Shown here one piece after another: positions 8,128-22,767 of a stretch of DNA of 23,041 nt. How positions within the stretch are numbered: the stretch's first letter is position 1; each line of letters begins with the position of its first letter. The stretch comes from a virus. Where the stretch lies: IMG/VR virus record IMGVR_UViG_3300028287_000366, positions 1-23,041 of that record; one strand, written 5' to 3'. The notes below the pieces were generated by a model, which was given only the letters and a program-made list of their open reading frames with translations, was not told the origin of the DNA and did no database searches. A program made the position numbers and the translations under genes.

Positions 8128-8138
8128 TCAATCTAGGC

Positions 8139-8160: not shown

Positions 8161-8186
8161 ACTTTACGCCCCGCTTAATGATTAAC

Positions 8187-8190: not shown

Positions 8191-8196
8191 AAGAAC

Positions 8197-8433
8197 ATTC
8201 CTACTTACGATTTTAAAAATGTAGAAACAGGTGAAGTGGTCGAAAAGATCGTAACACTATCTCAACGTGAAGAGATATTATCGACAGGAAAGTGGGAACA
8301 GGTCCACATCGGTGCGGCCGCACCATTAATTACTCACACCGGCAACATCATCAATAAAACCTCAGGTGATTGGAAGGATGTACTCAAGGGTATTAAGAAA
8401 GGCGCGGGACCAACAAGCACGATTGATCTATGA
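8197..8433 (+). CDS. FmdB-like phage protein with ATT start
   Basis: 78 aa if translation begins at ATT 8197: (M)PTYDFKNVETGEVVEK. This matches the MPTYDF N-terminus common to small FmdB-like proteins of cyanophages and other marine T4-like phages, where the start is normally ATG. Later parts also fit: a LSQREEIL helix and a GDWKDVLKGIKKGAGPTSTID tail. The zinc-binding cysteines of true FmdB are absent, as in many phage members. Starting at GTG 8236 would remove the first strand of the family. The stop overlaps the PhoH start (ATGA). Either a rare ATT codon is used or a base was misread. Confidence 0.75.
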   Translation: MPTYDFKNVETGEVVEKIVTLSQREEILSTGKWEQVHIGAAAPLITHTGNIINKTSGDWKDVLKGIKKGAGPTSTIDL

Positions 8434-9152
8434 GTCCTAAGAGAAGCACCCGATCTGAAAACGATCGGATGAAGATTAGTTTGGATAATCTATTAACAAT
8501 TCAACCAGAAACAGACAACCAAGCAGAAGCATTCGAAGCATGGAAAAAAGATCAACTCAATCTTGTAATGGTAGGTGCTGCGGGTACTGGTAAAACGTTT
8601 CTAGGAATGTATCTCGCTCTCGAACAGGTAATGGACATGTCGACACCTTACGAGAGATTAATCATAATCAGATCTGTTGTACCTACACGAGATGTCGGAC
8701 ATCTTAAGGGAACACTAGAAGAAAAACTCCAAGCGTACACCGCACCATACAGAGCAATCTGTGATAGTCTGTTTAATGTCAAAAAGGCATACGATAGACT
8801 GGAACACAATGAATATATTACGTTTGAATCAACCTCATATATAAGAGGTATGACGTTCGATAATTGCATCATTCTTGTGGATGAATCGCAGAACTGTAAT
8901 GAACATGAACTCGATTCGACTATAACAAGGGTTGGTGTTAACACCAAAATAATATTTTCTGGTGATTACTATCAGTCAGATTTTCGAAACAACAATGAAC
9001 GAGAAGGTATCAACAAGTTTCTCCACGTGATCGAACACATGACATCGTTCGCCACGATACAATTTGGTTGGGAAGACTGTGTAAGATCCGACTTCGTTCG
9101 CGACTACTTAATGACTAAAGAATGGTTACATGACAATACAAATAAGCAATAA
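8430..9152 (+). CDS. phoH: PhoH-like ATPase
   Basis: 240 aa. Walker A GAAGTGKT at residues 49-56, the PhoH-specific RSVVPTRDVGHLKGTLEEK region at 81-99, Walker B IILVDESQN at 147-155 and a sensor-like FSGDYYQSD at 177-185. This is a complete single-domain PhoH ATPase of the kind found in very many marine phages; the family is related to the ATPase cores of helicases. Its role in phages is not settled: RNA metabolism and phosphate-stress response have both been proposed. The first 13 residues are poorly conserved by character, so M14 is an alternative start. It begins in an ATGA overlap and its 3' end overlaps the next gene by 23 bases. Confidence 0.93.
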   Translation: MSPKRSTRSENDRMKISLDNLLTIQPETDNQAEAFEAWKKDQLNLVMVGAAGTGKTFLGMYLALEQVMDMSTPYERLIIIRSVVPTRDVGHLKGTLEEKLQAYTAPYRAICDSLFNVKKAYDRLEHNEYITFESTSYIRGMTFDNCIILVDESQNCNEHELDSTITRVGVNTKIIFSGDYYQSDFRNNNEREGINKFLHVIEHMTSFATIQFGWEDCVRSDFVRDYLMTKEWLHDNTNKQ

Positions 9153-9615
9153 TTTTTCACTTAAAGAATTCACACGATCTGTAATGGCACAGAGGATGGG
9201 CCTCGATAATCACCCCTCGGTCGATGAACTTGAAAATCTCTCTGAGTTATGCGATAATATATTACAACCACTAAGAGAACAAGTCGGACAAATCAAGATT
9301 CTTTCTGGGTTTAGATCGGTAAAACTCAACGCTGCGGTCGGTGGTTCTAGTAAATCTCAACACTGTAAGGGTGAAGCAGCAGACATCGAAGCAGTTAACT
9401 TTGGAAACAAAGAACTGTTCGGATTTATCGTAGACACATTTAAGTTCGATCAGTTAATACTTGAGTTTTATGTACCGGGCGATCCACATTCTGGTTGGAT
9501 ACATGTGTCGTACAAGCGATCAGGTAATCGAGGTATGAAACTCGCTGCGGTGAAAGAGAATGGTAAGACAATCTATAAAGTGATCAATAGTAAAGAAGAT
9601 TTAGAAAACTTGTGA
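9130..9615 (+). CDS. M15-family peptidase, probable endolysin
   Basis: 161 aa. ILSGFRSVKLNAAVGGSSKSQHCKGEAADIE (residues 57-87) and GWIHVSYKR (122-130) are the signature of M15 (VanY/peptidase_M15_3) D-Ala carboxypeptidase or endopeptidase domains. Zinc ligands would be H78, D85 and H125. The N-terminal NNFSLKEFTRS is the usual lead-in. No signal peptide or TM helix is seen, so the protein would need the holin at 4343 to reach the peptidoglycan. Tail-associated use during entry is an alternative. The ATG lies inside the end of phoH in another frame. Confidence 0.88.
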   Translation: MTIQISNNFSLKEFTRSVMAQRMGLDNHPSVDELENLSELCDNILQPLREQVGQIKILSGFRSVKLNAAVGGSSKSQHCKGEAADIEAVNFGNKELFGFIVDTFKFDQLILEFYVPGDPHSGWIHVSYKRSGNRGMKLAAVKENGKTIYKVINSKEDLENL

Positions 9616-9627
9616 GAAGGAACCATC

Positions 9628-9789: not shown

Positions 9790-9844
9790 ACCTAGAGTTC
9801 CGCACAAGATTGAGAATGAAATTAATTTTAGGAGAAACAAATGA
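9755..9844 (+). CDS. Possible 29-aa ORF, coupled to next gene
   Basis: ATG at 9755 lies within the previous ORF in a different frame; 29 codons (MKKSIYRVYVGKPRVPHKIE...) end in an ATGA overlap with the gene at 9841. The sequence is basic with a beta-strand-like core and does not look like random shadow translation, and the downstream coupling is suggestive. It has no good Shine-Dalgarno and overlaps its neighbour by 35 bases, so it remains doubtful. Confidence 0.35.
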   Translation: MKKSIYRVYVGKPRVPHKIENEINFRRNK

Positions 9845-10254
9845 GTCATTATAAACTGGTCTCCAATGCATTGCGAACACCTGACGGTACGGTTATTGAA
9901 AGTACGCATAGACATGACTATGTCACCCACAGAGATCAGAATGGCAATAATTACATGGTAGATGGAGGTCTAGATTATGTTAGATCCAGTGCTAATGGTG
10001 ATGAGGAACATTTAGCGGTTTATCTAGAGGATGGTCATGAGAAGGTTCGTAACGCGTTGACTTGGGGTACATACGGTATTAACGGTGACCAACCCTTAAA
10101 ACGTGTTAAACTATCTGATATGAGCAGTGACCACATTAGGGCTGTGTTGAAAGATAATGAAAAAAGACCAACGGTTTATCCCTCAGTTGTTACTGCGATG
10201 CAGGACGAACTGCAGTTTAGAAATTACGGTCTTCCTTTTTATCTAGATATATAA
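9841..10254 (+). CDS. Conserved phage protein, function unknown
   Basis: 137 aa with a strong Shine-Dalgarno (aggag, 8 bases upstream). Conserved blocks: LRTPDGTVIESTHRHDYVTHRDQNG (12-36), YMVDGGLDYVRSS (38-50), LTWGTYGINGDQPLKRVKLSDMSSDHI (73-99). I recognise this pattern from a widespread family in T4-like phages whose role is unknown. It has no catalytic triad, metal site, signal or TM segment that I can identify. It is the last gene before the non-coding hairpin region and the glycan cassette. Confidence 0.85.
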   Translation: MSHYKLVSNALRTPDGTVIESTHRHDYVTHRDQNGNNYMVDGGLDYVRSSANGDEEHLAVYLEDGHEKVRNALTWGTYGINGDQPLKRVKLSDMSSDHIRAVLKDNEKRPTVYPSVVTAMQDELQFRNYGLPFYLDI

Positions 10255-10261
10255 ACTTGAA

Positions 10262-10349
10262 AATATTTTAGGAAGCGCACCTGTAATGCGTGGTAAATTC
10301 CCACCGGATTACCGTTGAAGACCCCGTTAGGTGCGCTTCCTAAAATATT
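10262..10349. other. 21-bp perfect inverted repeat with structured loop
   Basis: Bases 10262-10282 are the exact reverse complement of 10329-10349 (arm begins AATATTTTAGG). The 46-base loop holds a smaller nested hairpin: GTAAT/ATTAC (10283-10287 with 10308-10312) enclosing GTGG/CCAC (10290-10293 with 10301-10304). As RNA this is a very stable long hairpin between 10254 and the glycan cassette; as DNA it could form a cruciform. It contains no ORF and has no tRNA signature. Role unknown: RNase III site, attenuator, small RNA or recombination site are all possible. Confidence 0.85.
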
Positions 10350-10358
10350 GGAGAAATG

Positions 10359-10407
10359 TTATGCAATTCTGTAGTTCTACTTACCATGTTGCATAAAAAG
10401 TTTTTTT
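10359..10407 (+). terminator. Weak hairpin followed by seven T
   Basis: TTATGCAA (10359-10366) pairs with TTGCATAA (10389-10396), with a 22-base loop containing a small GTA/TAC hairpin; a run of seven T (10401-10407) follows 4 bases later. The AT-rich stem is weak for an intrinsic terminator, but together with the larger hairpin it marks a likely transcription boundary or attenuator before 10440. Confidence 0.4.
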
Positions 10408-10439
10408 GTTGCGGGGTGATCCAGCGGGCGTAAACTATC

Positions 10440-11180
10440 ATGAAAAATTTAATATTCCAATACTACATACCATACGAGTCGTTTGATAAAGGCATTGGTG
10501 GTAAAGAATTACCACAATGGGCACAAGCAGGATCAAACTCTGCGAAGAATTATGCCAATCAGTGTGGTGCAGAATACGAACTGAACTATACTCGTCACTT
10601 CAAACACATCGACCCTCGCTTGGATACTCTACGTCTATTCTATGACGAATCGTTTGACGAATATGATAACGTCCTATGCTTAGACCTAGACATGTTGATT
10701 CGGACAAGGAAGAATGTCTTTGATCTAATTGAATCCAACACAGATGTCGCAATGGTTCATGAACTAGGCATCTTCACCAAGAGAGGATCTTGGTTAGGTC
10801 GTGTGATGAATCCACCTCTTCATGAGCGCGGGATAAAGGCATACGGCAAGCACTTGTTTGGATCTGACTGGAAGTTTCCAAGATCATCACTGTATCGTGA
10901 CGAGAACTACCGGTATCTTAATGGTGGATTACAGTTATGGACAAAGCAGGGTAGACTGAAAGCACGAGAACTATTCACATCAGTCGACGACTATGTTCTG
11001 CACACCAGATACACTGAACAGATGTATATCAATCTCCAGTTATCACAACCAGAGTTTAATGTCCAAGAGTTAGACACTAACTGGAACAGACTATCGTATC
11101 AGTGGTCGTTCAATCAACCGGACGGTTATATAAACCACTATCTTGGACCACAGGACAAACTACGAATGGTGAAGAAATGA
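10440..11180 (+). CDS. Glycosyltransferase, DxD type, paralogue A
   Basis: 246 aa. N-terminal MKNLIFQYYIPYES strand, then SNSAKNYANQCGAEYEL, a DxD metal/nucleotide-sugar motif at D82-L-D84 (VLCLDLDMLI) and NGGLQLW at 161-167, the usual acceptor-side Gly-Gly block of GT-A (GT8-like) transferases. It should transfer a sugar from a nucleotide-sugar donor in the cytoplasm. Two relatives with the same N-terminus and layout lie at 16033 and 17594. This is the first gene of the coupled cassette; no clear Shine-Dalgarno is seen before its ATG. Sugar and acceptor cannot be told. Confidence 0.8.
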   Translation: MKNLIFQYYIPYESFDKGIGGKELPQWAQAGSNSAKNYANQCGAEYELNYTRHFKHIDPRLDTLRLFYDESFDEYDNVLCLDLDMLIRTRKNVFDLIESNTDVAMVHELGIFTKRGSWLGRVMNPPLHERGIKAYGKHLFGSDWKFPRSSLYRDENYRYLNGGLQLWTKQGRLKARELFTSVDDYVLHTRYTEQMYINLQLSQPEFNVQELDTNWNRLSYQWSFNQPDGYINHYLGPQDKLRMVKK

Positions 11181-11779
11181 GATTCCTAGAACTAGCCGCT
11201 AAAGGCCAGCGAGATATTAACTGGGATGGTATTCGAGATGTTCCAATGCCAGGTTGTATGGTTCGTGACTTAACTGACCTCCCTATTAAGGGAATTGCAG
11301 ATAACACCTACACCGGTATTTACTCGGAGCATTTCATTGAACACATAACCAAGGAAGAAGGCATTGCATTATTCAAAGAATGCTTACGTATTCTAAAACC
11401 AGGTGGATGCTTGAGAACTGTTTGGCCGCCCATGGACTATGTTAATTTCTTACGGAACGGAAAGGACCATAGTGACAATGAGTTCGTGAAGCATTACTAT
11501 GAGATCTACATCAAGAAGCATAGATTCGCTGGCGAAGGTCATGATCAAAAACCGATACAGGAACAGGTTGCAATAGGTCTGTTACATCAGAAAGGTGAGC
11601 ACAAATACCTTTGGGGTGTGCAGGAGATGTTTGTAGAGTTGATGAGTGCCGGGTTCACGAAACTGGGAGACCCATTATACAACAATAGTCGCGTTGCTGC
11701 GTTCAGAAACATCGACACTCCAGGTTCGATAAGAGAAGCACATTCCGCTGTAGTAGAGGCACAAAAACCATGGCGCTAA
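11177..11779 (+). CDS. SAM-dependent methyltransferase-like protein
   Basis: 200 aa from the ATG in an ATGA overlap with the previous stop; a longer reading frame to 11102 exists but lies inside the glycosyltransferase. Class I methyltransferase features from motif post-I onward: DLTDLPIKGIADNTYTGIYSEHFIEHI (31-57) and ALFKECLRILKPGGCLRTVWP (64-84). The Gly-rich SAM-binding motif I expected near the N-terminus is missing; only MRFLELAAKGQRDINW stands there. It may be a degenerate but stable subfamily, as in other sugar clusters. It probably methylates a sugar or is a structural relative. Confidence 0.75.
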   Translation: MRFLELAAKGQRDINWDGIRDVPMPGCMVRDLTDLPIKGIADNTYTGIYSEHFIEHITKEEGIALFKECLRILKPGGCLRTVWPPMDYVNFLRNGKDHSDNEFVKHYYEIYIKKHRFAGEGHDQKPIQEQVAIGLLHQKGEHKYLWGVQEMFVELMSAGFTKLGDPLYNNSRVAAFRNIDTPGSIREAHSAVVEAQKPWR

Positions 11780-12063
11780 CAGTTGATATTGTCAAGGACG
11801 ATAATTTTGATGCCGAAAAGGTGAAGATGTTTTGGACACCGCTCATGTTGAAGTTCAAAGATAGACCACAATTCAAATTTCGGGTCATGGATGTAGCATC
11901 AAACCTAACAAATTCCGCAAGGTTTCCATGGTATCTTATACCTACATACCAAGGCATGTTATACTTAGAAAAATTAGAGACAACAAAAGACAACCCGCTT
12001 GTTATGTTTGATGTGGATTCAGAGTTAAGTGAGTTATGCTACGACATAAGGAATTTTAAATGA
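11770..12063 (+). CDS. Orphan 97-aa ORF in glycan cassette
   Basis: 97 aa; ATG overlaps the previous stop by 10 bases and the stop overlaps the next ATG (ATGA). The middle is aromatic and hydrophobic (ARFPWYLIPTYQGMLYLEKL) and the end acidic (VMFDVDSELSEL). I recognise no family or motif. The length and the abrupt end at the coupling site would suit a fragment of a larger enzyme, but no remaining part is visible. Tight packing on both sides supports real translation. Confidence 0.6.
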   Translation: MALTVDIVKDDNFDAEKVKMFWTPLMLKFKDRPQFKFRVMDVASNLTNSARFPWYLIPTYQGMLYLEKLETTKDNPLVMFDVDSELSELCYDIRNFK

Positions 12064-12611
12064 GAAAAGTATTCATAGATTGTGGCGCAAACAAGGGGTT
12101 TGCTATTGAGGGATTTAGGGAAATATACGGAAGTGATTATGAAGTTTTTGCCTTTGAGTGTCTTCCTGAGTGTATAGGAATACTGAAAGAAAAATTTGAT
12201 GACATTACGTTAATAGAAAAGGCTGTACACACAGAGAATACGAATCTAAAATTCAATATAGGTACTACAACAAGGTCTGGAACATTACGCCATGATAAGA
12301 CGATGTTCCAAAAAGGCACCCATATGACAGTAGAGGCAGTAGATTTGTCTATGTGGTTGATGGATAACTTTGACGAGACGGACGAGATTATCATGGCCAT
12401 GGATATCGAAGGTTCTGAATATGAAATTATTCCTAGAATGTTAGAAACAGGAGCTGTTAAGTATCTGAATAAATTTTATTTAGAGTGGCATAGTATGAAA
12501 TTGCGAGACGTTCCAGGAATCACCGACCAGGTCCTAGGTGAAAATCTTAAAGCGTATCTTGGTGATAATTTAATAGTGTCGGTAAGTACCGGTTGGGATA
12601 TTTCTAGGTGA
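12060..12611 (+). CDS. FkbM-family methyltransferase A
   Basis: 183 aa. FIDCGANKG at residues 5-13 is SAM-binding motif I, AFECLP at 31-36 has the acidic residue for the ribose, and MAMDIEGSEYEIIPRML at 112-128 is the FkbM signature. It is short but complete for the core domain. FkbM proteins O-methylate sugars or polyketides. The end (LIVSVSTGWDISR) is compact. It begins in ATGA and its stop overlaps the GTG of the next gene. It differs clearly from the second FkbM protein at 14500, so the two probably act on different positions. Confidence 0.87.
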   Translation: MRKVFIDCGANKGFAIEGFREIYGSDYEVFAFECLPECIGILKEKFDDITLIEKAVHTENTNLKFNIGTTTRSGTLRHDKTMFQKGTHMTVEAVDLSMWLMDNFDETDEIIMAMDIEGSEYEIIPRMLETGAVKYLNKFYLEWHSMKLRDVPGITDQVLGENLKAYLGDNLIVSVSTGWDISR

Positions 12612-13093
12612 TCATAATTTCTCATCGTGGAAATCTTAATGGTCCCAGTCCTAGTACCGAAAATCATCCCAAACAAATAATCGAAGCCATAGAACGTGGG
12701 GGATTTTTTGTTGAGACGGATCTTTGGTACCAAAGTGGGAATTATTTTTTAGGCCATGATCACCCGGAACATCAAATTAATATAGATTTTCTTCTACAAC
12801 ATAAGGAATCCCTCTATATTCACTGCAAGAATATAGAGGCTCTAGAATCTATGTCCAGAAGAACAGACCTCCACCACTTCTGGCACAACACCGATGACCA
12901 CACCATTACCAGCAATGGCGTGGTGTGGTCCTACCCTGGCGCAACTGCCTTTCGTAGTAAGGAAAGTGGTATACAGATACTAACTCTTCCAGAAAGAGAG
13001 AGTCGTAGTTATATGAGATCATATATAGAGAATTTTTCTGGTTTATGTACAGATTTTCCGCTTGATTTCCGTGATGTGTGTCATGGCGAGTGA
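12608..13093 (+). CDS. GDPD/PI-PLC-like phosphodiesterase
   Basis: 161 aa with a GTG start overlapping the previous stop (GTGA). SHRGN at residues 5-9, TENH at 17-20, FVETDLWY at 34-41, LGHDHPEH at 48-55, IHCKN at 71-75 and LCTDFPLD at 146-153 follow the glycerophosphodiester phosphodiesterase TIM-barrel order: the catalytic pair would be H6 and H50, with E36 and D38 as metal ligands. It is shorter than the usual 220-250 residues but keeps both ends of the barrel, as in compact forms from capsule loci. It lacks a signal peptide, so its substrate is cytoplasmic. A role in glycerophosphate-linked sugars is inference. Confidence 0.75.
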   Translation: MIIISHRGNLNGPSPSTENHPKQIIEAIERGGFFVETDLWYQSGNYFLGHDHPEHQINIDFLLQHKESLYIHCKNIEALESMSRRTDLHHFWHNTDDHTITSNGVVWSYPGATAFRSKESGIQILTLPERESRSYMRSYIENFSGLCTDFPLDFRDVCHGE

Positions 13094-14450
13094 TATCAAG
13101 TTGGTGTTATTCGATTTAGATGGCGTGTTGATTGATGCGAAGAAGATACATTATGACGCGCTCAACGCCGCAATAGTGATCGTCGCCGGTGAAGAATATT
13201 CAATAACTGCGGAAGAACATCGCAATTTCTATGATGGGAGAAAAACCAAAGAGAAGTTAGTTCTTTTAACAGAAAGAAAGAGATTACCTCCAGAATTTCA
13301 TGATAGAATATTCTCGTTGAAGCAGCACCATACGATGAATATGATGGAAACGTTGCAACCCAACGAAGAACATTTGGCCCTGTTTGATGCTCTGATAGAG
13401 AAAGGATATAGTATTGGAGTATGTACCAACTCGATAAGACGAACTGTTCTGACCGCACTGGCTAATGTTTCTCTCACGAAATATTGCTCGATTATATTGT
13501 CCAACGAGGACGTTAAGAATTCTAAACCGCATCCCGAGATATACTGGAAGGCGATGTCGATGTTGGGTTTCCTTCCTGAAGAAACGATGATCGTGGAAGA
13601 CTCGCCACCAGGATTGTTATCCGCAGCAAGATCAGGAGCAAAATATATAAGAGTAGAGAATCCTATGAATTTAACCAAAGAGAAGGTGATGAAAAATTTG
13701 AGTGGTATTACTGTACAAAACAAATGGAAGTCTGAAGAATTAAATGTCCTTATTCCTATGGCCGGTGCGGGAAGCAGATTTCATCAGGCAGGTTACACAT
13801 TCCCAAAACCCCTAATAGATGTTAATGGCAAATCGATGATACAACGAGTTGTTGAAAACATAGGTCTAGATGCCAATTTTATTTTTGTGTGTCAAAAGGA
13901 ACACAGGGAAAGTTACAACCTAGATAATATGTTGCCACTGATTGCTCCCAATTGTAAGATAGTCGAAACAGATGGTATCACTGAAGGGGCCGCATGCACC
14001 GCATTACTTGCCAAGGAACATATAGATAATGATAATCCACTGTTCTTTTCTAATAGTGACCAGTGGGTCGATTGGGATCCCGTCGGGTTTATGTATAAGA
14101 TGCAAGAAACTGCTTCTGATGGTGGGATTGTTACGTTCAAAGCGACACATCCCAAATGGTCGTTCGCGAAGATCGACGATAATGGCGTTGTGGTCGAAGT
14201 AGCAGAGAAGAATCCAATCAGTGATAATGCAACAGTGGGATATTATTATTGGAAATGTGGATCAGATTTTGTTAAGTATGCTGAACAGATGATTGAAAAT
14301 GACATTCGAGTGAATGGAGAATTCTATGTCTGTCCTGTTTTCAACGAAGCGATCAAAGACGAGAAAATTATCCGCACATTCGAGGCCCAGCAAATGTGGG
14401 GACTTGGGACACCCGAAGACTTAGAGCATTTTATAGTATCAAATTTATGA
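13083..14450 (+). CDS. HAD phosphatase + sugar nucleotidyltransferase fusion
   Basis: 455 aa from ATG 13083 (MASDIKLVLFDLDG), overlapping the previous gene by 11 bases; a TTG at 13062 in the same frame is less likely. Residues 5-190 form a HAD hydrolase: DLDGVLID (nucleophile D11, acid D13), VCTNS (113-117), K148 in NSKPHPE and VEDSPPG (171-177). Residues 222-455 form a nucleotidyltransferase: PMAGAGSRF (225-233), FPKPLIDVNGK (240-250) and NSDQW (324-328) with metal-binding D326. One chain could activate a sugar to a nucleotide-sugar and remove a phosphate. All key residues of both domains are present. It is central to the cassette. Confidence 0.88.
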   Translation: MASDIKLVLFDLDGVLIDAKKIHYDALNAAIVIVAGEEYSITAEEHRNFYDGRKTKEKLVLLTERKRLPPEFHDRIFSLKQHHTMNMMETLQPNEEHLALFDALIEKGYSIGVCTNSIRRTVLTALANVSLTKYCSIILSNEDVKNSKPHPEIYWKAMSMLGFLPEETMIVEDSPPGLLSAARSGAKYIRVENPMNLTKEKVMKNLSGITVQNKWKSEELNVLIPMAGAGSRFHQAGYTFPKPLIDVNGKSMIQRVVENIGLDANFIFVCQKEHRESYNLDNMLPLIAPNCKIVETDGITEGAACTALLAKEHIDNDNPLFFSNSDQWVDWDPVGFMYKMQETASDGGIVTFKATHPKWSFAKIDDNGVVVEVAEKNPISDNATVGYYYWKCGSDFVKYAEQMIENDIRVNGEFYVCPVFNEAIKDEKIIRTFEAQQMWGLGTPEDLEHFIVSNL

Positions 14451-14503
14451 AGAATTTATTTATGAAGAATTTACCACCCACACAATGGAGAATTTATTTA
14501 TGA
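14447..14503 (+). CDS. 18-aa mini-ORF from a start-site duplication
   Basis: ATG at 14447 lies in the stop of the fusion gene (ATGA). Eighteen codons (MKNLFMKNLPPTQWRIYL) end with TGA 14501-14503, itself inside an ATGA with the next gene's start at 14500. It arose from a tandem duplication of the start region of the FkbM gene. It may act only as a leader that passes ribosomes from one gene to the next. Confidence 0.5.
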   Translation: MKNLFMKNLPPTQWRIYL

Positions 14504-14518
14504 AGAACTTACCACCCA
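14452..14518 (+). repeat. Imperfect tandem repeat, 38-bp period
   Basis: A 29-base sequence at 14452-14480 (gaatttatttatgaagaa...) recurs at 14490-14518 with one difference (t to c). The period of 38 is not a multiple of three, so the copies are out of frame with each other. The 9-base spacer cacaatgga recurs at 14537-14545 inside the FkbM gene, consistent with a template slip back from there. Confidence 0.9.
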
Positions 14519-15171
14519 ATTCTGATAGCTTTCAGACACAATGGAAAACCCCAGAACATGATGTATTTTTCAAAGATCATCAAGACGTCCTTGAGGCGAT
14601 GTGTTTTAGAACTTGGGACGTTGCGATAAAACACCTATCTTCCTTCAGAACAGCAATAGATATAGGCGCGCATATCGGAACCCATTCCTATGTTTACTCA
14701 CAGTTCTTTGACAATGTGAAGGCTTTTGAACCATTATATTTCAATGAATGTTCTGACAACATAAAGCATATAGAAAACTGTGAAATTTATCCTTATGGTA
14801 TATCAGACGCATCAACTATAGGACATATGGTCCGGAGTAACAACAACTCCGGGATTTCGGTTGTGTTAAATGATGATAATAGAGGTAAAATATCAAAATC
14901 GAAGAACATAAAAATGGAAAAAACGTATCCCGTGGAATTGAGAACTCTGGATGAGTTTGGTTTCACTGACGTAGATTTCATAAAGGTTGATACAGAAGGT
15001 TATGTTTATCCCATTCTGCTAGGCATGAAACGAACGCTTGAGAAGTGGAAACCTCTGTTAGAACTCGAAATGAACTATTTGACAGTTAGAGAACAGGAAT
15101 CCTTGGAGTTTCTTTCTTCATTAGGATACGAGAAGGTAGCCACAGAAGATAAGGATTATTTTTACAAATGA
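14500..15171 (+). CDS. FkbM-family methyltransferase B
   Basis: 223 aa from ATG 14500, chosen because ggag at 14487-14490 lies 9 bases away and the start forms an ATGA with the mini-ORF; ATG 14485 (five codons more) is in frame but less well placed. AIDIGAHIGTH at 52-62 is SAM motif I, KAFEP at 74-78 follows, and IKVDTEGYVYPILLG at 161-175 is the FkbM signature with the catalytic-region Asp-Glu. It likely O-methylates a sugar. Its Asn- and Lys-rich middle (NDDNRGKISKSKNIKMEK) has an AT-rich flavour. The stop overlaps the next ATG. Confidence 0.87.
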   Translation: MKNLPPNSDSFQTQWKTPEHDVFFKDHQDVLEAMCFRTWDVAIKHLSSFRTAIDIGAHIGTHSYVYSQFFDNVKAFEPLYFNECSDNIKHIENCEIYPYGISDASTIGHMVRSNNNSGISVVLNDDNRGKISKSKNIKMEKTYPVELRTLDEFGFTDVDFIKVDTEGYVYPILLGMKRTLEKWKPLLELEMNYLTVREQESLEFLSSLGYEKVATEDKDYFYK

Positions 15172-15326
15172 CAAAACGCGGCACCAGTGCTGACTCTAGA
15201 TCATACGTTGATTTTTATACGGAAGAAACAAAACGAATAGTGGCCGAATGGTACAAAGATGATATTGAGTTTTTTGGATTCGAGTTCACAACAGCAGCTA
15301 CGAAGAACATCTGGGCAGTTTCGTGA
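15168..15326 (+). pseudogene. Sulfotransferase C-terminal remnant
   Basis: ATG in ATGA overlap with FkbM B; 52 codons to TGA 15324-15326, which overlaps the next GTG. The product (SYVDFYTEETKRIVAEWY, KDDIEFFGFEF) reads like the last 40 residues of phage/bacterial sulfotransferases (Y-x-x-Y-Y-x-x-E-T-x-x-I-V...D-I-x-x-F-G-Y-x-F). The PAPS-binding N-terminal part is absent and the ORF opens directly upstream with another gene, so the enzyme has been truncated. It may still be translated thanks to coupling. The family match is from memory of the pattern, not a search. Confidence 0.6.
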
Positions 15327-16036
15327 GAGTTGCTGTTTGTGTTTCTGGCCTTGTGACATCTGCATACGGGGGTGGCGCCAAGAGAAATAACGAGATTCTG
15401 AAAGAAAAGTTTCCGACGGCAGATTTCTTTTACACGACATGGGAAACGGAAAGAGAGTCGTTTAATCGTTCTTTCAGTGGTGTGGAATGCGCTTTCTTAC
15501 CCGAACCAGATATCACCAGACACCCCTACACAGAGTTGATAGAATCGTTTTCCCCCTGGTTTCAGAGTACCGCAGATTGGGTCAGATGTTCACCAGAAAG
15601 GATTGTTTGGACAAGACATCACACAAAACAGATTGTTGCTCATTCATATCTGGTATCTAATCTTCCTTCCGGATATGATGTCGTTGTTAGGACAAGGTAT
15701 GATGCATTTATATCTCCCTGTGCTGTATTTGAAAATTACCTAAAAAAGGCGTATAATCATAATACAGTTAGTGGGTTTGGAACCAGAAATAAAGATAGGA
15801 TAGACGAAATTAATGTTCTTTCTAATCCTGGCACAAACTGGGAACATAGAATACTGGATCATTTGATCATACACCCCAATCGTATGGTATCATACGATAA
15901 TGTTGTCACTATGGTCGAAAAAAATACACTTCATCCAGCAGAATATGGATGGTACCAGACTTTGGTTTTACCCAACAACTTCATTCACACGAATAATGAT
16001 GGATGGGTTAATCATGATAAGAAGATTAATATATGA
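15323..16036 (+). CDS. Putative glycosyltransferase, RTRYD type
   Basis: 237 aa, GTG start in the stop of the remnant (GTGA). N-terminal strand MRVAVCVSGLVTSAYGGG, then ADFFYTTWE (33-41), YDVVVRTRYDAFI near residues 118-130 and a C-terminal NNFIHTNNDGWVNHD. Proteins that begin with an IAVCVSG-like strand and carry R-x-R-x-D in the middle occur in sugar clusters and phages as unclassified glycosyltransferase-like proteins; the RTRYD would take the place of DxD. No other domain is seen. The function is plausible, not demonstrated. Confidence 0.65.
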   Translation: MRVAVCVSGLVTSAYGGGAKRNNEILKEKFPTADFFYTTWETERESFNRSFSGVECAFLPEPDITRHPYTELIESFSPWFQSTADWVRCSPERIVWTRHHTKQIVAHSYLVSNLPSGYDVVVRTRYDAFISPCAVFENYLKKAYNHNTVSGFGTRNKDRIDEINVLSNPGTNWEHRILDHLIIHPNRMVSYDNVVTMVEKNTLHPAEYGWYQTLVLPNNFIHTNNDGWVNHDKKINI

Positions 16037-16698
16037 AGAATATAATACTCCAGCATTACACTGGCGAACTGGGTGAACTGGAACATCTATCTGTCGCAAA
16101 CATATCTAGATATGCTGATAAGTGTGGTGCAGATTATGAACTGGTTCTCGGAAACGTATTCTCCGACAAATTGTCTGTTCAGACCCAGAAGTTGTTTATG
16201 CTCGATCCATGTTGGGACGACTACGACACCGTTGCAATGGTCGATATCGATATGTTCGAGAGAAAAGGACAAAGAGAAAACGTATTTCATGTTCAGGGAG
16301 TTGGTCTATATGGAGACATACAAGAAACGCTACATAGGGGGTTGAACAGAAACTTCCCTTTCATGTCTAGTATGGAAGTGCCATACTGGGGAGGGGCGAT
16401 ATACAAGATGGACAGAGATATGCGTATACGTCTTCGAAAGAATATAGATGTCAACGCATTGTCAAAGTTCAATCGCGCATATTTCGACGAGGGTTGTATG
16501 CATCATCTAGCGTTTCTATCTGGTGAGAAATTCGCAACACTTCCAGGCGATTATAAGTGGTGTCATTGTTCATATCGTGATGGTATAGATACTGCCGCAC
16601 TGATTCATGTCAGAAACAAGGTTGGTCTAACTGGTCCAAAAAGGCCAAAGATTGAAAATTATAGACGTTTGGTTGAGAGGGGTTTGATTGAAGAATGA
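16033..16698 (+). CDS. Glycosyltransferase, DxD type, paralogue B
   Basis: 221 aa. It has the same plan as the proteins at 10440 and 17594: MKNIILQHYTGEL, RYADKCGADYELV (26-38), VDIDMF with D71-I-D73, and WGGAIYK at 119-125. It is the shortest of the three and its middle differs, so donor or acceptor probably differs. It is expected in the cytoplasm and uses a nucleotide-sugar. Starts in ATGA after the RTRYD protein and ends in ATGA with the SDR gene, which could supply its donor sugar. Confidence 0.8.
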   Translation: MKNIILQHYTGELGELEHLSVANISRYADKCGADYELVLGNVFSDKLSVQTQKLFMLDPCWDDYDTVAMVDIDMFERKGQRENVFHVQGVGLYGDIQETLHRGLNRNFPFMSSMEVPYWGGAIYKMDRDMRIRLRKNIDVNALSKFNRAYFDEGCMHHLAFLSGEKFATLPGDYKWCHCSYRDGIDTAALIHVRNKVGLTGPKRPKIENYRRLVERGLIEE

Positions 16699-17597
16699 AC
16701 ATACTAGTGACAGGAAGTAATGGGTTTTTAGGAAGAAACGTCTGCGATGAATTTGTGAGAAACGGTCACACTGTTTATGGAGTGTCTAGGTCTATATCTA
16801 GTCGAGTTTCTGAGGTGATACAACATGTGTGCGATATCACAGATTCAGAAACCATGAACCGCATTGTGAGTGAAAAGTCTATAGATATTATTGTACACCT
16901 GGCAGGTAAACCTATTGTTTTTGATTGTGAGAAGAACCCATTCGACGCATACAGAACAAACGGGTTAGGCACTGCGTCGGTATTAGAGTCAGCGAGAGTG
17001 AATGAAGTGTCTAAGGTGCTGTCTATAGAAACTGATAAGGTTTATGGTTTTCAAGATGAAGTGCCTACCGACGAATCTGCAACATTCAATCCAGGATCAC
17101 CATATGAATTCTCTAAAGTTCTGGCCGCGAACTTTGCCGAGTGGTATAGAAACTATTATAACATTAACGTTATAAGTGTTCGACCCGCTAATCTTTTCGG
17201 GCCCTACGATTTTTCCACCAGTAGATTAATACCCAGCGCATTGAATAATCTCAAAGTAGGAAAGGGTATTCGCGTCTATGAGTCTGCCCTAGAAATGAAA
17301 AGGGATTTCGTATATGTTTCTGATGCCGTCAAAAGTATATACAATCTTGCGACAAAAGAGTGTAACTTTAATGAGTATAACATAAGCAACGACGATCCCA
17401 TGACCATAAAAGAAACCGCAGATAGAATCGTATCTGCATTAGGAATAGATATTCCTCATGTGATAGAAAAGAAGTCAGGATCGTTTAAGGAGATCCCATT
17501 ACAGGAAATAAATGGTAGTAGGTTATCGGAAGAATTTGGTTTTGAGTTCACTCCTTTCGATCAGGCTATACAAGAAACGTGGGAAAGAATAAAATGA
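16695..17597 (+). CDS. SDR-type nucleotide-sugar epimerase/dehydratase
   Basis: 300 aa, full length for an extended short-chain dehydrogenase. NAD(P)-binding GSNGFLG at residues 7-13 (G7, G10, G13), CDITD at 46-50, HLAGKP at 68-73, SIETDKVYG at 110-118, catalytic Y137-x-x-x-K141 and RPANLFGP at 163-170. The SxxTDKVYG pattern is like 4,6-dehydratases of CDP-glucose and relatives, but this does not fix the substrate. It would modify the sugar nucleotide made by the fusion enzyme at 13083. Tightly coupled on both sides by ATGA. Confidence 0.9.
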   Translation: MNILVTGSNGFLGRNVCDEFVRNGHTVYGVSRSISSRVSEVIQHVCDITDSETMNRIVSEKSIDIIVHLAGKPIVFDCEKNPFDAYRTNGLGTASVLESARVNEVSKVLSIETDKVYGFQDEVPTDESATFNPGSPYEFSKVLAANFAEWYRNYYNINVISVRPANLFGPYDFSTSRLIPSALNNLKVGKGIRVYESALEMKRDFVYVSDAVKSIYNLATKECNFNEYNISNDDPMTIKETADRIVSALGIDIPHVIEKKSGSFKEIPLQEINGSRLSEEFGFEFTPFDQAIQETWERIK

Positions 17598-18409
17598 AGA
17601 ATTTAATTTATCAATACTGGGATGGGAAACTTCTTCCCGGACACAAGGCCGGAAGAACTGCAATGCAGTCCTATGCGGATCGAATTGGTGTTGAGTATTT
17701 ATTTGAGGACAATCCCAGATGGCAGACTGCTCTCGGGCAATACTCACCCCATTATGGTTCGTTCAAATTCGTATATGACGGATCATTCGATATATACGAC
17801 AACATACTGTATGCAGATATAGACATCTTCCCCGTGGATGGTTTGACCGAAAATATCTTTGATGGGTTTACTGCCGAACTTGGTATATGTACAGAACCAA
17901 TGCAACCAAAGTTTCGTTCCAGTTCGATAACTCCAGGAGGCATAACAAGTCGAAACGATGAGGTTTGGGCGAAAATGATAAGGGATGTTTATGGAAAGGA
18001 CATGCCGCGTGACTCTGATGGTCTATTGAAAGTGTATAATTCAGGTTTGGTTCTTTGGTCTAGATTAGGTATAATGAAAGGAAGAAAAAATCTTCCAGTG
18101 TTCAAAGGATACATACAGCACTGTAGAGAGTCTGGTCTACCATCATTTTACACCGCAGACCAGAACTATATACACGCAGCAAAGGACATTGCTGGATTTG
18201 ATTGGATAGAACTAGACAACAATTGGAATAGTTACATCCATTATCATGGGGAAGGCGACCCACGCCCAGTAAACGATTCAAGAACAGAAAACACTAAGTT
18301 TGTACATGTTCAACTTAGGGCTGCAGACCACTTCGATAAAGAAACGCTACATACTATTGTTAATAATCCAGTAGAAGTCTGGAACGGCAAGCTCCCAAAA
18401 ATAGGATAG
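17594..18409 (+). CDS. Glycosyltransferase, DxD type, paralogue C
   Basis: 271 aa from ATG 17594, which forms ATGA with the SDR stop; a GTG five codons upstream lies within the SDR gene. MKNLIYQYWDGKLLPGHKAG, SYADRIGVEYLF (26-37), ADIDIF with D75-I-D77 and YNSGLVLW at 148-155. This is the longest of the three paralogues and shares the Q-Y opening with the one at 10440. Same GT-A type reaction expected: transfer from a nucleotide-sugar, metal dependent. The gap of 3 bases to the next gene is the only break in the overlap chain. Confidence 0.8.
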   Translation: MKNLIYQYWDGKLLPGHKAGRTAMQSYADRIGVEYLFEDNPRWQTALGQYSPHYGSFKFVYDGSFDIYDNILYADIDIFPVDGLTENIFDGFTAELGICTEPMQPKFRSSSITPGGITSRNDEVWAKMIRDVYGKDMPRDSDGLLKVYNSGLVLWSRLGIMKGRKNLPVFKGYIQHCRESGLPSFYTADQNYIHAAKDIAGFDWIELDNNWNSYIHYHGEGDPRPVNDSRTENTKFVHVQLRAADHFDKETLHTIVNNPVEVWNGKLPKIG

Positions 18410-18412
18410 AAA

Positions 18413-19000
18413 ATGATTAATGCAGAACTAAGTCATGTGAAAACTCTACCAGAATTTTACACAGAGATTAGAAAGCAACACGAGCAAGCACACGGCCACG
18501 ATTATTGTTGGCAGCATGATGCTATGCAAAAACTAATGAAGAAGTGTGATACATACAGAGAACTTGGAACGCACCAAGGAGCTTCTGCGGCCGCAGCATG
18601 TCTGATGAATCCATCCGCAGTAACTCTTGTTGATATTTCTTTTGAGAAGTGGAGACCATTCGAATCTATATTCAGAACTTATTGTGAAGAGAACAATATT
18701 AGTTTTGATGTTCAAGAAAAATCTTCTACTGATCCATCAACTGCCAAACCTGTTGATCTGTTATTGATAGATAGTAACCATCAACCAGCGCATCTAGTTA
18801 ACGAACTTAACCTCCACGCAAAGACAGTCAAGAAGTATATCGTACTCCATGATACTTCGCGGTTGTTCGGGAAGGTTGACGATAGACTATGGCAAGTTGT
18901 CAATGGGTTTATTAACAATGGTATCAATCCATGGATAGTACAAGAACGTTGTACTGACAATGTGGGGTATACTGTACTACAGAACACACTGAACACATGA
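18413..19000 (+). CDS. Class I SAM methyltransferase (Methyltransf_24-like)
   Basis: 195 aa. YRELGTHQGASAAAACLM at 48-65 is motif I, TLVDISFEKW at 71-80 motif II, and LLLIDSNHQPAHLVNEL (116-132) with YIVLHDTSR (142-150) match the cephalosporin-hydroxylase / Methyltransf_24 type found in many sugar clusters. The IDSNH and LHDT residues would bind a metal or substrate. Complete domain. A Shine-Dalgarno aggata precedes it. It likely methylates a hydroxyl of a sugar; the exact acceptor is unknown. Ends in ATGA with the GT25-like gene. Confidence 0.8.
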   Translation: MINAELSHVKTLPEFYTEIRKQHEQAHGHDYCWQHDAMQKLMKKCDTYRELGTHQGASAAAACLMNPSAVTLVDISFEKWRPFESIFRTYCEENNISFDVQEKSSTDPSTAKPVDLLLIDSNHQPAHLVNELNLHAKTVKKYIVLHDTSRLFGKVDDRLWQVVNGFINNGINPWIVQERCTDNVGYTVLQNTLNT

Positions 19001-19704
19001 AAGCGTCCATCATAACATTAGTCGATGACGTTGACTCGCGCAATCAGGCAGAGCGTTGTCGATCTTCCTCTGACCAATACAACCATGATGTCGAATGTAC
19101 TCTGAGTCCAGCAGTCACGCCAGACATGGTAGACGATCTGCTACTTTCGTTTAGAGTTCATTGGACATATCCATGGGACGAACCTAGACTGGATATTAAA
19201 ACAGGCCTATTGCTGCCTCCATATACAACAGCATCTCCTATGAAACTAGTCGCTTGTTTTCTCTCCCATTACTGGTTATGGTTAGAGATCGCGGAGTCGA
19301 CCGAACCCAGGATCATCCTAGAAGAGGACGCACTGTTTGTGAAACCCCTCGATCTGGACATTCTCAAGAACACTAAGTTCAGCATAGTAGGACTTAATGA
19401 TCCCCGAGGCGCAACCCGCAAATCTAGTGTGTTCCACAGTGAAGTTGAATCCCCCTCAAATTTAGGGTATAATATAATACCAGTACCTTCAGTTGACAAC
19501 CAGAACGTGCCTCAGGGTCTTGCAGGCAACTCTGCGTACTTCATTAGACCAGAAGGCGCAAAGACGCTGGTGGGACTGGTGAAAGCACATGGAGTATGGC
19601 CTAACGATGCTATCATGTGTAAGCAACTAATGCCAAAGCAATTGGGCGTTACCACTACATACTATACACGAGTACAAGGGACAAAGTCTAAGACTGCATC
19701 ATGA
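18997..19704 (+). CDS. GT25-like glycosyltransferase A
   Basis: 235 aa. The layout is that of LPS glycosyltransferases of family 25: MKASIITLVD opening, VACFLSHYWLWLEIAE (85-100), RIILEEDALFV with E109-E110-D111, and a late GLAGNSAYFIRPEGAKTLV. EED stands for the metal-binding ExD motif of the family. These enzymes add galactose or related sugars to lipooligosaccharide core. It forms a tandem pair with the next gene, which has the same motif order. Coupled by ATGA on both sides. Confidence 0.85.
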   Translation: MKASIITLVDDVDSRNQAERCRSSSDQYNHDVECTLSPAVTPDMVDDLLLSFRVHWTYPWDEPRLDIKTGLLLPPYTTASPMKLVACFLSHYWLWLEIAESTEPRIILEEDALFVKPLDLDILKNTKFSIVGLNDPRGATRKSSVFHSEVESPSNLGYNIIPVPSVDNQNVPQGLAGNSAYFIRPEGAKTLVGLVKAHGVWPNDAIMCKQLMPKQLGVTTTYYTRVQGTKSKTAS

Positions 19705-20363
19705 AATCGTTTGTAATAACAATTGAACATCTAGAAGTTTCCAGACAAGTAGCAGAACGATGTAAGAAATCCCTGTCAGAGTTCGATGTACAGAACTACT
19801 ATGGTTGTACACCAAAGGACGATCCTGTTGCTTTATTTCAACATCATGGTATGGATGCTTCTGGTTTCAAACAACAACCAGGAAGGGAATACGCTTTTGA
19901 GATATCTAATATGGCAGCGTTTCTTTCTCACTGGAGTTTATGGAACAAGTGTATAGAGGATAATGAGGAGTATCAAATCTTCGAACATGACGCGGTTGCA
20001 ACATTGTTTGTTCCTCAGTTCATTCCATACAAGCATTGTGTCTCTATTGGTAAACCTAGTTATGGAAACTTCAAGATTGCTCCAAGAATGGGATCACACA
20101 AACTGTTTAGCAAAGCATACTTTCCAGGTGCTCATGCATACAGACTTAAACCTGCTGGTGCTAAACTGTTAGTAGAAGGTGCGAAGACGCATGCGCAACC
20201 AACAGACATTTTCTTGAACAATAAAGATTTCCCGACACTTGAAGAATACTATCCATGGCTTGTTGAGGCAAAAGATTCGTTCTCTACAATACAGAGAGAA
20301 CTGGGTTGTCGGGCGAAACACAATTGGCATGACGGTATAGGGTATACCATAATAAATGATTAA
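19701..20363 (+). CDS. GT25-like glycosyltransferase B
   Basis: 220 aa, evidently a relative of the gene before it: MKSFVITIEHLE opening, MAAFLSHWSLWNKCIEDN (71-88), YQIFEHDAVA (91-100) and GAHAYRLKPAGAKLLVEGA later. The acidic motif is E95-H-D97 rather than E-E-D. The MKSF start here is a beta strand and not a head-targeting peptide. Function is expected to be sugar transfer in the cytoplasm. It overlaps the next gene by 8 bases. Confidence 0.82.
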   Translation: MKSFVITIEHLEVSRQVAERCKKSLSEFDVQNYYGCTPKDDPVALFQHHGMDASGFKQQPGREYAFEISNMAAFLSHWSLWNKCIEDNEEYQIFEHDAVATLFVPQFIPYKHCVSIGKPSYGNFKIAPRMGSHKLFSKAYFPGAHAYRLKPAGAKLLVEGAKTHAQPTDIFLNNKDFPTLEEYYPWLVEAKDSFSTIQRELGCRAKHNWHDGIGYTIIND

Positions 20364-21045
20364 TCTTATCACAGTATGTACTGACGCATATCCTATGGAG
20401 TATGCCCGCAAGACGATCACTAGATTCATGGAGTTGACTGACCTAGAATGTACACCGTACTGTATCACAGATCGACCTGACGAAATTAGAGACATTGCTA
20501 CGCCTATCAAACCAGAGATTAAAACTGTAGGTTGGTGGAACAAGGTCCTTGCGTACAGTCCTAATATGCCCAAGGGATTTAATGTCTACCTTGATATCGA
20601 TATCGTCCTCATTAACAACTTCGATGAAGAGATCAGGTATGCTCAACGAACAGGCAAAAAGATTTCTTGTGTATCGGATGCGATTATGTGGAAGGGTAAT
20701 AAGTTCAGTTCTTCGATGATGATGTTCTGTACTGGAGCAATGAAGGATGTTTATGAATACTTTAAACCTGTTCACAAGATGTTAGAGCATGACTATGATG
20801 GCGGTGATCAGGTATGGACAGGTCATCTCTTAAACGACGACGACATACTGTACCTAGACGAAGTGTATCCAGATATTAAGATGAATCTGAAATTTCATCT
20901 CGGTACCAAAGTGTTTGGCCAGTGGAAGTTTCCCCACAGAATTAGTCCAAAGATAAAAACTGTTGATTGTGGCGGTCGACCAAAACCTCACGATCTCCAA
21001 GATTTAGACTATATAAGAAACAACTGGCATGAGATCAAAACATAA
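20356..21045 (+). CDS. DxD glycosyltransferase, WWNK type
   Basis: 229 aa. LITVCTDAYPMEYA opening, GWWNKVLAYSPNMPKG (59-74), VYLDIDIVLINNFDEEI with D80-I-D82, SSSMMMFCTGAMKDVY and a late DGGDQVWTGHLL. WWNK followed by a DxD strand is the hallmark of a GT-A-type family often found in phage and capsule clusters. It is not close to the three MKN-type paralogues. Complete and in frame; TAATG overlap with the next gene. Confidence 0.8.
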   Translation: MINLITVCTDAYPMEYARKTITRFMELTDLECTPYCITDRPDEIRDIATPIKPEIKTVGWWNKVLAYSPNMPKGFNVYLDIDIVLINNFDEEIRYAQRTGKKISCVSDAIMWKGNKFSSSMMMFCTGAMKDVYEYFKPVHKMLEHDYDGGDQVWTGHLLNDDDILYLDEVYPDIKMNLKFHLGTKVFGQWKFPHRISPKIKTVDCGGRPKPHDLQDLDYIRNNWHEIKT

Positions 21046-21800
21046 TGGGTAAAGTAGTTCATGTAATCGGCAACGGTGATAAGGCAATATTCTATAAAGA
21101 GAAGAAGCGCGAGGGCATGAAACTTATCTGTAACATGCCTCCGTTCTCTATGCCAACAAATGAAGTCTATGCAACCTGTATGGTTGACTTCAAGATGATG
21201 GCAGCATTGACAGAGGGATCCTTGAACCTTGCTATGTATGACTGGGTGCTTGGTACGCGGCCGCGTATGTGGATGGATGACCCTGCTCGTTCGTTGTTTT
21301 ATCTAAAGTACGCCAAGAACATCAAGGAGTTCTATACTACTGTTCCTGACTATGCAGGTAATGCTACCAACTTCAACTGTGGACATATGGCAGTCCATTA
21401 TGCAGCAAACAAACATCAGGCGGACGAAATTCATATGTATGGATTTGACACGTTGTTTGATTTCAACATGCACAGTATCACAGATCTGTATCTGAACAGC
21501 GACCGTGGACAGTCAAACAATTTTAGATTGATCGAGAACTGGCGTCCTGTCTGGTGGGGATTGTTCAACGAGTTTCCAAACACTAAGTTTGTACTGCACC
21601 ATGATCATGACGACCTGAAATTACCGAAACTTGAAAACGTGGAAGTAATAACGTATACTAGTAAGAAGAAGAAAAACGAACCTGTCAAGGTAGACAAACC
21701 AGCGCAGATTATACTAGACGAGGATCCTCTCGCGGAACTTCGCGGATTGAATCGTCATCAACGTCGAGCAGTAACTGCACAGAAAAGGAAGAATAAATGA
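21045..21800 (+). CDS. GT42-like protein with basic tail
   Basis: 251 aa. HVIGNGDKAIF (6-16), MKLICNMPPF (25-34) and NCGHMAVHYAANKHQADEIHMYGFD (111-135) follow the layout of GT42 / motility-accessory-like proteins, where GNGPS binds the nucleotide and the last block is the conserved GxD strand. The usual Pro-Ser after GNG is changed to Asp-Lys. Residues 206-251 form a Lys/Arg tail with GLNRHQRRAVTAQKR, a basic tail seen on assorted phage proteins. Possible sialyl- or pseudaminyl-type transfer is inferred only. It is the last gene of the glycan run; ATGA with the next gene. Confidence 0.6.
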   Translation: MGKVVHVIGNGDKAIFYKEKKREGMKLICNMPPFSMPTNEVYATCMVDFKMMAALTEGSLNLAMYDWVLGTRPRMWMDDPARSLFYLKYAKNIKEFYTTVPDYAGNATNFNCGHMAVHYAANKHQADEIHMYGFDTLFDFNMHSITDLYLNSDRGQSNNFRLIENWRPVWWGLFNEFPNTKFVLHHDHDDLKLPKLENVEVITYTSKKKKNEPVKVDKPAQIILDEDPLAELRGLNRHQRRAVTAQKRKNK

Positions 21801-22093
21801 ATATGAATAGAAGTGAAATGATCGAAGAACTCAAAGCGAACATCTGTACTGTGACGTTCACTAAGGTGAATGGAGACGAGCGGATTATGTTGTGCACATT
21901 ACGTGAAGACGTATTGCCCGAGTGGGAATCGCGTGTCGCCCGCGATGCACCCATGGTCAACGAAAACGTTGTCAATGTGTGGCACTTTGCCCTCGGTCAA
22001 GCCAGACATGATGATGGATGGAGAAGTTTCCGGGTCGATAATGTAACAAATTTCGTTACTCATGAACCTGATGTCAACGTCGCATCCATGTAA
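21797..22093 (+). CDS. WYL_2/DUF2693-like small protein
   Basis: 98 aa (MNMNRSEM start; M3 also possible). VTFTKVNGDERIMLCTLREDVLP (residues 19-41) and VNVWHFALGQARHDDGWRSFRVDNVTNF (59-86) match the SH3-like phage family I know as DUF2693 or WYL_2. Such proteins are common in T4-like phages and may bind nucleic acid or a small ligand. It marks the return from glycan genes to ordinary phage genes while still being coupled (ATGA, then TAATG). Confidence 0.8.
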   Translation: MNMNRSEMIEELKANICTVTFTKVNGDERIMLCTLREDVLPEWESRVARDAPMVNENVVNVWHFALGQARHDDGWRSFRVDNVTNFVTHEPDVNVASM

Positions 22094-22767
22094 TGTCATT
22101 CGTTCATCGAAAAGAGTCGCTGTTAGGTTATGATGATCTAACAGCGACTACCTTGCCAACAGGTAGAACATACGCTACCCCAACCGGCGAAAGGTATCCT
22201 TCCATAACGACTGTTCTTTCGATACTCTCGGAAGAGCATATCGCCGCATGGAAAGAAAAGGTTGGTGAAGAAGAGGCGAGAAAGGTTTCTTTTCGTGCGT
22301 CGAATCGTGGGACTAAAGTTCACGAGATGATAGAGAAATATGTGGCAAACGATCCGGACTATGCTGTCGGATATATGCCGCATGTCGTTGCCAACTTTCG
22401 TTCAGTCAAACCTATTCTTGATAGTCGCCTTGGACTTATCTATGAACAGGAAGCAGCACTGTATTCGCATCACCTCGGTGTCGCCGGCCGTGTCGACCTT
22501 GTCGGCGAGTTCGACGGTCAACTATCAATCGTTGACTGGAAAACTTCAGCAAAAACAAAACGCAAATCTTGGGTTGAAAATTACTTCATTCAAGAATCCG
22601 CATACGCTATTATGTGGGAAGAGCGAACAGGTGTTCCCATCACCCAGTTAGTCACCATCATAGCAGTCGACCATAGTAAACCACAGGTGTTCGTCGAACA
22701 TAGAGACTCCTGGTCGAAAACCCTCCTAGAAACAATCGATCTATTCAAGACTCGAAATTCCCTTTAA
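22093..22767 (+). CDS. PD-(D/E)XK exonuclease, Cas4/RecB type
   Basis: 224 aa. YPSITTVLS (35-43), NRGTKVHEMIEKY (71-83), GVAGRVDLVGEFDG (129-142) with D135, SIVDWKTS (145-152) with D148 and K150, and IQESAYAIMWEE (166-177) with Q167 give the complete PD-(D/E)XK nuclease order I know from Cas4, RecB and phage exonucleases. No Cys cluster for an Fe-S centre is visible, unlike Cas4. It would act as a DNA exonuclease in replication, recombination or host DNA breakdown. TAATG start; nothing overlaps its stop, which ends the long coupled run. Confidence 0.9.
   Translation: MSFVHRKESLLGYDDLTATTLPTGRTYATPTGERYPSITTVLSILSEEHIAAWKEKVGEEEARKVSFRASNRGTKVHEMIEKYVANDPDYAVGYMPHVVANFRSVKPILDSRLGLIYEQEAALYSHHLGVAGRVDLVGEFDGQLSIVDWKTSAKTKRKSWVENYFIQESAYAIMWEERTGVPITQLVTIIAVDHSKPQVFVEHRDSWSKTLLETIDLFKTRNSL

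Follow-up and report, generated by a model that had tools for sequence, protein, structure and literature searches.

The window analysed here, a 23,041-base virus record (IMGVR_UViG_3300028287_000366), contains a cassette of glycan genes at positions 10440-21800, filling the space from phoH to an exonuclease gene (exo). The cassette is a genuine locus for glycan biosynthesis; such loci are known from marine T4-like phages, and this variant has anchored ends and within-species exchange. Its novelty lies in this behaviour (a fixed site, an anchored end and the exchange of alleles inside one species) and not in the existence of the cassette. Glycan clusters have been known in marine T4-like phages since the P-SSM2 genome, and whether they represent working genes or filler has long been open. 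Constant ends combined with an interior that is exchanged within one species are hard to square with filler; as with the serotype loci of bacteria, the pattern suggests that selection favours change in a surface sugar. Our overall reading, in which we place about even confidence, is that this glycan locus is modular, that its alleles are swapped, and that an uncultured lineage of T4-like marine phages most likely uses it to vary a surface glycan.

An allele switch and an anchored, mosaic locus

A perfect inverted repeat just 5' of the first cassette gene, c1, served as a species tag, with which five contigs were found. The repeat is kept in all contigs found of this species and is absent from the loci of more distant relatives; the stretch around it has a fold z-score of -4.95, and an Rfam search of the hairpin gave no match. 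The window's own allele is supported by two further contigs, one of which (L008, from a different record) reproduces the whole window arrangement at ~100% identity, while the other (L154) matches the window exactly along 11,520 bases.

Three contigs from three other datasets (L155, L156 and L158) carry a different arrangement. For 7.1 kb (4329-11442) they match the window at 97.5% identity. In 250-nt bins, identity remains 96-100% as far as position 11000, falls to 92% in the following bin and then drops to 67, 58, 49 and 28%. The switch point falls inside c2, the second cassette gene. Because the three contigs agree across this break, being mutually 99.95-100% identical over the junction, both arrangements have been independently assembled. 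The alternative allele, as read in L156, encodes a diverged c2 (62.5%), a GalE-like SDR, two FkbM methyltransferases, a relative of UDP-sulfoquinovose synthase (NF041015, E 4.4e-100, under the curated cut-off), a GT8 transferase 48% identical to c11, and further genes. Several of its proteins are nearer to other phages' cassettes than to the window. Taken together, these sequences indicate that a single phage species exchanges alleles at this locus in the manner of serotypes.

The same site is used more widely, with the cassette occupying the phoH-exo interval in the window's relatives as well. In P-SSM2, by contrast, phoH and the exonuclease lie 1.4 kb apart with just two minor coat genes between them, whereas the window's interval holds a cassette with different core genes (c14, c16). 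The 3' end of the locus is anchored by a GT25 gene, the candidate DUF115-like last gene (c16) and the exonuclease. In a sample of 80 loci found by c16, with counts taken over testable loci only, a GT25 gene like c14 lies at most 3 kb to the left of c16 in 64/64 loci, and exo at most 2.5 kb to its right in 62/64. The interior is mosaic. Proteins from 24 cassette regions form 116 families at 40% identity, a count that takes in some flanking genes of partial contigs. Two relatives (L018 and L031) whose flank proteins are 92-96% identical, and whose cassette ends are 85-96% identical, have only 8 of their 16-17 cassette families in common. Other relatives' cassettes hold a pyruvyl-transferase, a sulfotransferase, a hexapeptide transferase and many methyltransferase families.

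One such exchange may have left a trace in the window. A 52-aa open reading frame (ORF) between c7 and c8 aligns with the final 35 positions of Sulfotransfer_2 (217-251 of 252), and relatives' cassettes encode full-length sulfotransferases whose C-termini are 45-50% identical to it. It is most simply explained as the stub remaining after another gene replaced the rest of a sulfotransferase, and would thus mark a replaced gene.

Gene content of the cassette

The cassette comprises 16 intact ORFs (c1-c16) and the 52-aa ORF, all on the + strand and without internal stops, in agreement with the ~17 consecutive genes described in an earlier, sequence-only reading of this DNA. Starts were reassigned to ATG 11177 for c2 and ATG 13083 for c6. 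As that reading also proposed, short overlaps are near-universal: junctions are mostly -4 (ATGA/GTGA), -1 (TAATG) or overlaps of 8-11 nt, and the sole intergenic gaps are +34 (c6/c7) and +3 (c11/c12). The only sizeable gap may be explained by a 34-nt direct repeat (94% identical, 14447-14480 and 14485-14518) that covers the c6 stop and the c7 start. The overlapping series runs on past c16 into a WYL_2 gene and the exonuclease. G+C content is 40.8% within the cassette and 42.5% outside, values close enough that the cassette does not appear freshly acquired. A nucleotide search against sequenced phages returned no match for the window.

Gene families were assigned with Pfam and PHROG profiles (Table 1). 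These bore out the fusion of HAD and nucleotidyltransferase domains, the SDR and the four methyltransferases (c2, c4, c7 and c12) named by the sequence-only reading. Its count of at least seven transferase-like proteins is reached by six glycosyltransferases with profile support together with c8 and c16, both likely transferase-like by context or weak fold evidence. The GDPD-like enzyme, c5, has a PHROG match and, in phage DSL-LC03, a counterpart annotated as glycerophosphodiester phosphodiesterase; the Pfam search of c5 was without match.

The proteins c1, c9 and c11 belong to a single family, in which a DxD is invariant. The profile of this family matches LARGE1 structures, with GT8 structures under significance, and some of its relatives reach or come near the Pfam GT8 model. 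In c6 the HAD motifs are retained, and the nucleotidyltransferase domain lies near PDB 4evw. Compared with every aligned relative, the window's c6 also has four extra hydrophobic residues (IVIV region, near residue 30). The best named model for c10 is dTDP-glucose 4,6-dehydratase, at a score far under that model's cut-off. Searches with c8 found nothing in Pfam and nothing convincing in the PDB. A c16 model with a predicted local distance difference test (pLDDT) score of 87 matches viral structures annotated DUF115 and MptE-like. An alternative assignment of c16 as a sialyltransferase was dropped because the marginal Cst-II match of the first model (15 sequences, pLDDT 66) was not reproduced by this better one.

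Table 1. Features of the cassette and its flanks in the window.
Feature	Position	Strand	Evidence
phoH, left boundary of variable locus	8430..9152	+	phrog_170 E 1e-77; left flank of full cassettes in relatives
M15 peptidase endolysin	9130..9615	+	PF08291, phrog_894
Perfect 21-bp inverted repeat, 46-nt loop, just 5' of c1	10262..10349	.	
c1 GT8-like glycosyltransferase	10440..11180	+	DxD; 97.6% identical in alternative allele
c2 methyltransferase, holds allele switch point	11177..11779	+	PF08241 (Methyltransf_11); identity collapse
c3, 97 aa, no family match	11770..12063	+	32% relative in alternative allele
c4 FkbM-type methyltransferase	12060..12611	+	PF05050
c5 GDPD-like	12608..13093	+	phrog_34507; counterpart in DSL-LC03 annotated GDPD
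c6 HAD phosphatase + sugar nucleotidyltransferase fusion	13083..14450	+	PF13419, PF00483; phrog_8468, phrog_3980; PDB 4evw, bPGM relatives
c7 FkbM-type methyltransferase	14485..15171	+	PF05050
Probable sulfotransferase C-terminus remnant, 52 aa	15168..15326	+	PF03567, E 0.13 alone; C-termini of relatives' sulfotransferases
c8 variable putative transferase-like family	15323..16036	+	family in all full c6-selected cassettes
c9 GT8-like glycosyltransferase	16033..16698	+	DxD invariant in c1/c9/c11 family
c10 SDR nucleotide-sugar epimerase/dehydratase	16695..17597	+	PF01370 E 4.9e-51
c11 GT8-like glycosyltransferase	17594..18409	+	c1/c9/c11 family
c12 methyltransferase (Methyltransf_24)	18413..19000	+	PF13578
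c13 GT25 glycosyltransferase	18997..19704	+	PF01755
c14 GT25 glycosyltransferase, conserved 3' anchor	19701..20363	+	PF01755; GT25 near c16 in 64/64 loci
c15 glycosyltransferase	20356..21045	+	phrog_1962 E 1.3e-6
c16 conserved last gene, candidate DUF115/MptE-like fold	21045..21800	+	exonuclease next in 62/64 loci; model pLDDT 87
PD-(D/E)XK exonuclease, right boundary	22093..22767	+	phrog_298 E 2.8e-70

Glycan synthesis, its acceptor and rival explanations

If the cassette is expressed, c6 and c10 would make a nucleoside diphosphate sugar, from which, together with host sugars, the GT8-like, GT25 and other glycosyltransferases would lengthen an oligosaccharide in the cytoplasm. O-methyl groups would cap this chain, and sister alleles would contribute sulfate or sulfoquinovose; the structure of the sugar we infer from the gene set. 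Recombination between relatives would replace the interior and leave the 3' end (c14, c16) constant, and through this swapping one phage species would carry different glycan types. Relatives hold these genes as one block rather than scattered, as expected of the linked pathway proposed by the sequence-only reading, and the surface role that it suggested is plausible because alleles are exchanged in the manner of surface-antigen loci.

The proteins that are missing bear on where such a glycan would be built. Judged by a simple hydropathy cut-off, the window cassette encodes no membrane protein, the only protein over the cut-off being the soluble c6; across the 24 cassette regions, 19 of 471 proteins exceed it, of which 8 are c6 and the rest lie to the left of c6 in two phage groups. 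Flippase, polymerase and exporter families are absent from the window proteins and from the 25 families listed for 84 cassette proteins. No initiating lipid-phosphate transferase was seen in the window cassette, and the GtrA/GtrB membrane proteins of the Gtr serotype-conversion cluster were not found in the window. These absences make cytoplasmic assembly probable, with either a virion protein or the core of lipopolysaccharide (LPS) as the acceptor. The DUF115 group includes flagellin glycosyltransferases, which tilts the balance slightly towards a protein acceptor, and we lean slightly to the virion over host LPS. On a virion, the phage would have true serotypes, the locus being swapped whole or in part to give a variable, methylated and sometimes sulfated coat built in the cytoplasm; this is a tentative proposal that we rate below an even chance. 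Such serotypes would affect adsorption, decay or recognition, while a sugar on the host would form a diversified superinfection barrier. Near-identical phages that differ in this cassette provide a ready test set.

Several observations weigh against this overall picture. L156 ends inside the alternative allele, short of the right boundary, and a right flank with c13-c16 at 94.6% identity lies on a separate contig (L073) from the same metagenome as L155; the far end of the alternative allele is therefore not linked to the same right flank. Among loci with c16 for which 9 kb or more of upstream sequence is available, the gene c6 occurs in 26/56. An early sample overstates c6 because it was chosen by c6, and the proposal that c6 is universal in cassettes was dropped. 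The pLDDT 87 model of c16 found no fold match in the PDB, and PF01973 is matched by 8/41 members of the c16 family, at E 0.016 or weaker, making the DUF115-like assignment a weak one. Finally, GT8 and GT25 are classic soluble LPS-core transferases, so the lack of membrane proteins is compatible with a host target.

Remodelling of the host surface is indeed a serious possibility, though one that falls short of probable. The LPS core or O-chain would be altered against superinfection or grazer recognition, by way of host lipid carriers and flippases, as already proposed for P-SSM2 (PMC2984593) and pelagimyophages (PMC7029224). GT25 and GT8 are LPS-core families, Pfam naming GT25 an LPS biosynthesis family; yet the window cassette showed no flippase, polymerase, initiating lipid-phosphate transferase or membrane protein of its own, and a lytic cell is short-lived whereas the locus is large and repeatedly re-diversified.

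Two further explanations fare worse. The transferases might add sugars to modified DNA bases against restriction, as in the glucosylation of hydroxymethyl-cytosine in T4, and DNA-glycosylating phage glycosyltransferases exist, going by the part of PMC12619734 that cites Pyle et al. 2024. We consider such hypermodification improbable: base masking has no need of an allele-variable chain of 6-8 transferases with methyl- and sulfotransferases, and the T4 type appears unlikely because six long relatives gave no match to PF00303 (thymidylate synthase/dCMP hydroxymethylase), a profile that was positive in nine control genomes. Still more remote is the idea, raised for cyanophage LPS clusters (PMC3037559), that the genes are stuffer DNA, functionless hitch-hiking filler for headful packaging. 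Fast turnover of gene content and one truncated sulfotransferase would fit it, but 16/16 main ORFs are intact, motifs are conserved where tested and translational overlaps are tight. Furthermore, GT25 is kept beside c16 in every testable locus, and c6 is ~70-75% identical over diverse phages with its HAD motifs intact.

Related loci, lineage and flanks

Large LPS clusters occur in the T4-like cyanophages P-SSM2, S-SM2 and S-SSM7, with their function left open (Sullivan et al. 2010, PMC3037559); P-SSM2 has 24 LPS genes (PMC2984593), and one of its clusters lies near phoH (PMC3037559; PMC2984593). In pelagimyophages, GT8 glycosyltransferases are encoded in a hypervariable island (Zaragoza-Solas et al. 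2020, PMC7029224), and we find contiguous glycan clusters in S-CAM9, S-PRM1, S-8S53, DSL-LC03, B23 and SynMITS9220M01. The window cassette is therefore not the first of its kind. The premise of the sequence-only reading, that phages carry few glycan genes and a whole block is exceptional, fails given the clusters of P-SSM2, S-CAM9, S-PRM1 and the pelagimyophages.

In common with the clusters of P-SSM2, S-SM2 and S-SSM7, the window has a large contiguous set of linked transferase and nucleotide-sugar genes in what its relatives indicate is a T4-type genome. T4-type Gp23 (PF07068) is present in 8/8 long relatives carrying c6 or c16, upholding the earlier T4-like label, although this could not be read from the window itself. 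Unlike those cyanophages, the eight long relatives are without photosystem genes (PF00124, photosystem reaction-centre, absent in 8/8; Synechococcus control positive), which separates them from the cyanophage type of glycan island. The Kyanoviridae S-CAM9, S-PRM1, S-8S53, DSL-LC03 and B23 share the HAD-nucleotidyltransferase fusion (~53-54% identical), a nearby relative of c5 and several overlapping glycosyltransferase genes. Their cassettes differ in having other transferases (GT11 etc.) and lying mostly beside transaldolase/hli/psbA rather than between phoH and exo, and no c14- or c16-type genes were detected in them. The pelagimyophage host recognition cluster is likewise hypervariable, carries GT8 and belongs to uncultured T4-like marine phages. 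It is bordered by VrlC and gp14 and includes tail fibres, whereas the glycan cassette of the window sits in the phoH-exo interval, keeps its 3' genes fixed and is swapped within a species.

Further afield, capsid glycosylation in the chlorovirus PBCV-1 (PMC5408694) offers an analogy only: viral transferases act in the cytoplasm and the glycans are antigenically variable. PBCV-1 is an unrelated eukaryotic virus whose variants arise by single-gene mutation, as against cassette exchange in the window's species, where the acceptor is putative. Bacterial O-antigen and capsule loci have fixed flanks, conserved ends, a mosaic interior and serotype-like switching. The window locus resembles them in these respects, but no Wzx, Wzy, ABC exporter or initiating transferase was found in it.

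The window encodes a class II ribonucleotide reductase (NrdJ, 4898-6829) closest to the enzymes of SAR116 phage HMO-2011 (66%) and roseophages, unlike the class I nrdA/nrdB of the inspected cyanophages, and this affinity weakly suggests an alphaproteobacterial host. The gene c16 also occurs on five contigs of metagenome-assembled genomes (L067-L071, binned as Flavobacteriales, Rhodobacteraceae, Sphingobacteriales, Bacteroidetes and Verrucomicrobia), at least one of which (L070) has an overlapping gene series of cassette type; these contigs may be phage DNA binned with hosts, and are thus uninformative on the host. In the window, the late-promoter motif TATAAATA has one site (7413), a frequency expected by chance, and scans for sigma-70 promoters and terminators gave weak signals near shuffle level. 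The window's first long gene (136-2013) has apparent internal repeats, across which L154 aligns in several registers. To the 3' side of the exonuclease in a near-identical phage, L073:7413-8951 holds response-regulator-like and cytidylyltransferase-like ORFs, as judged by eye.

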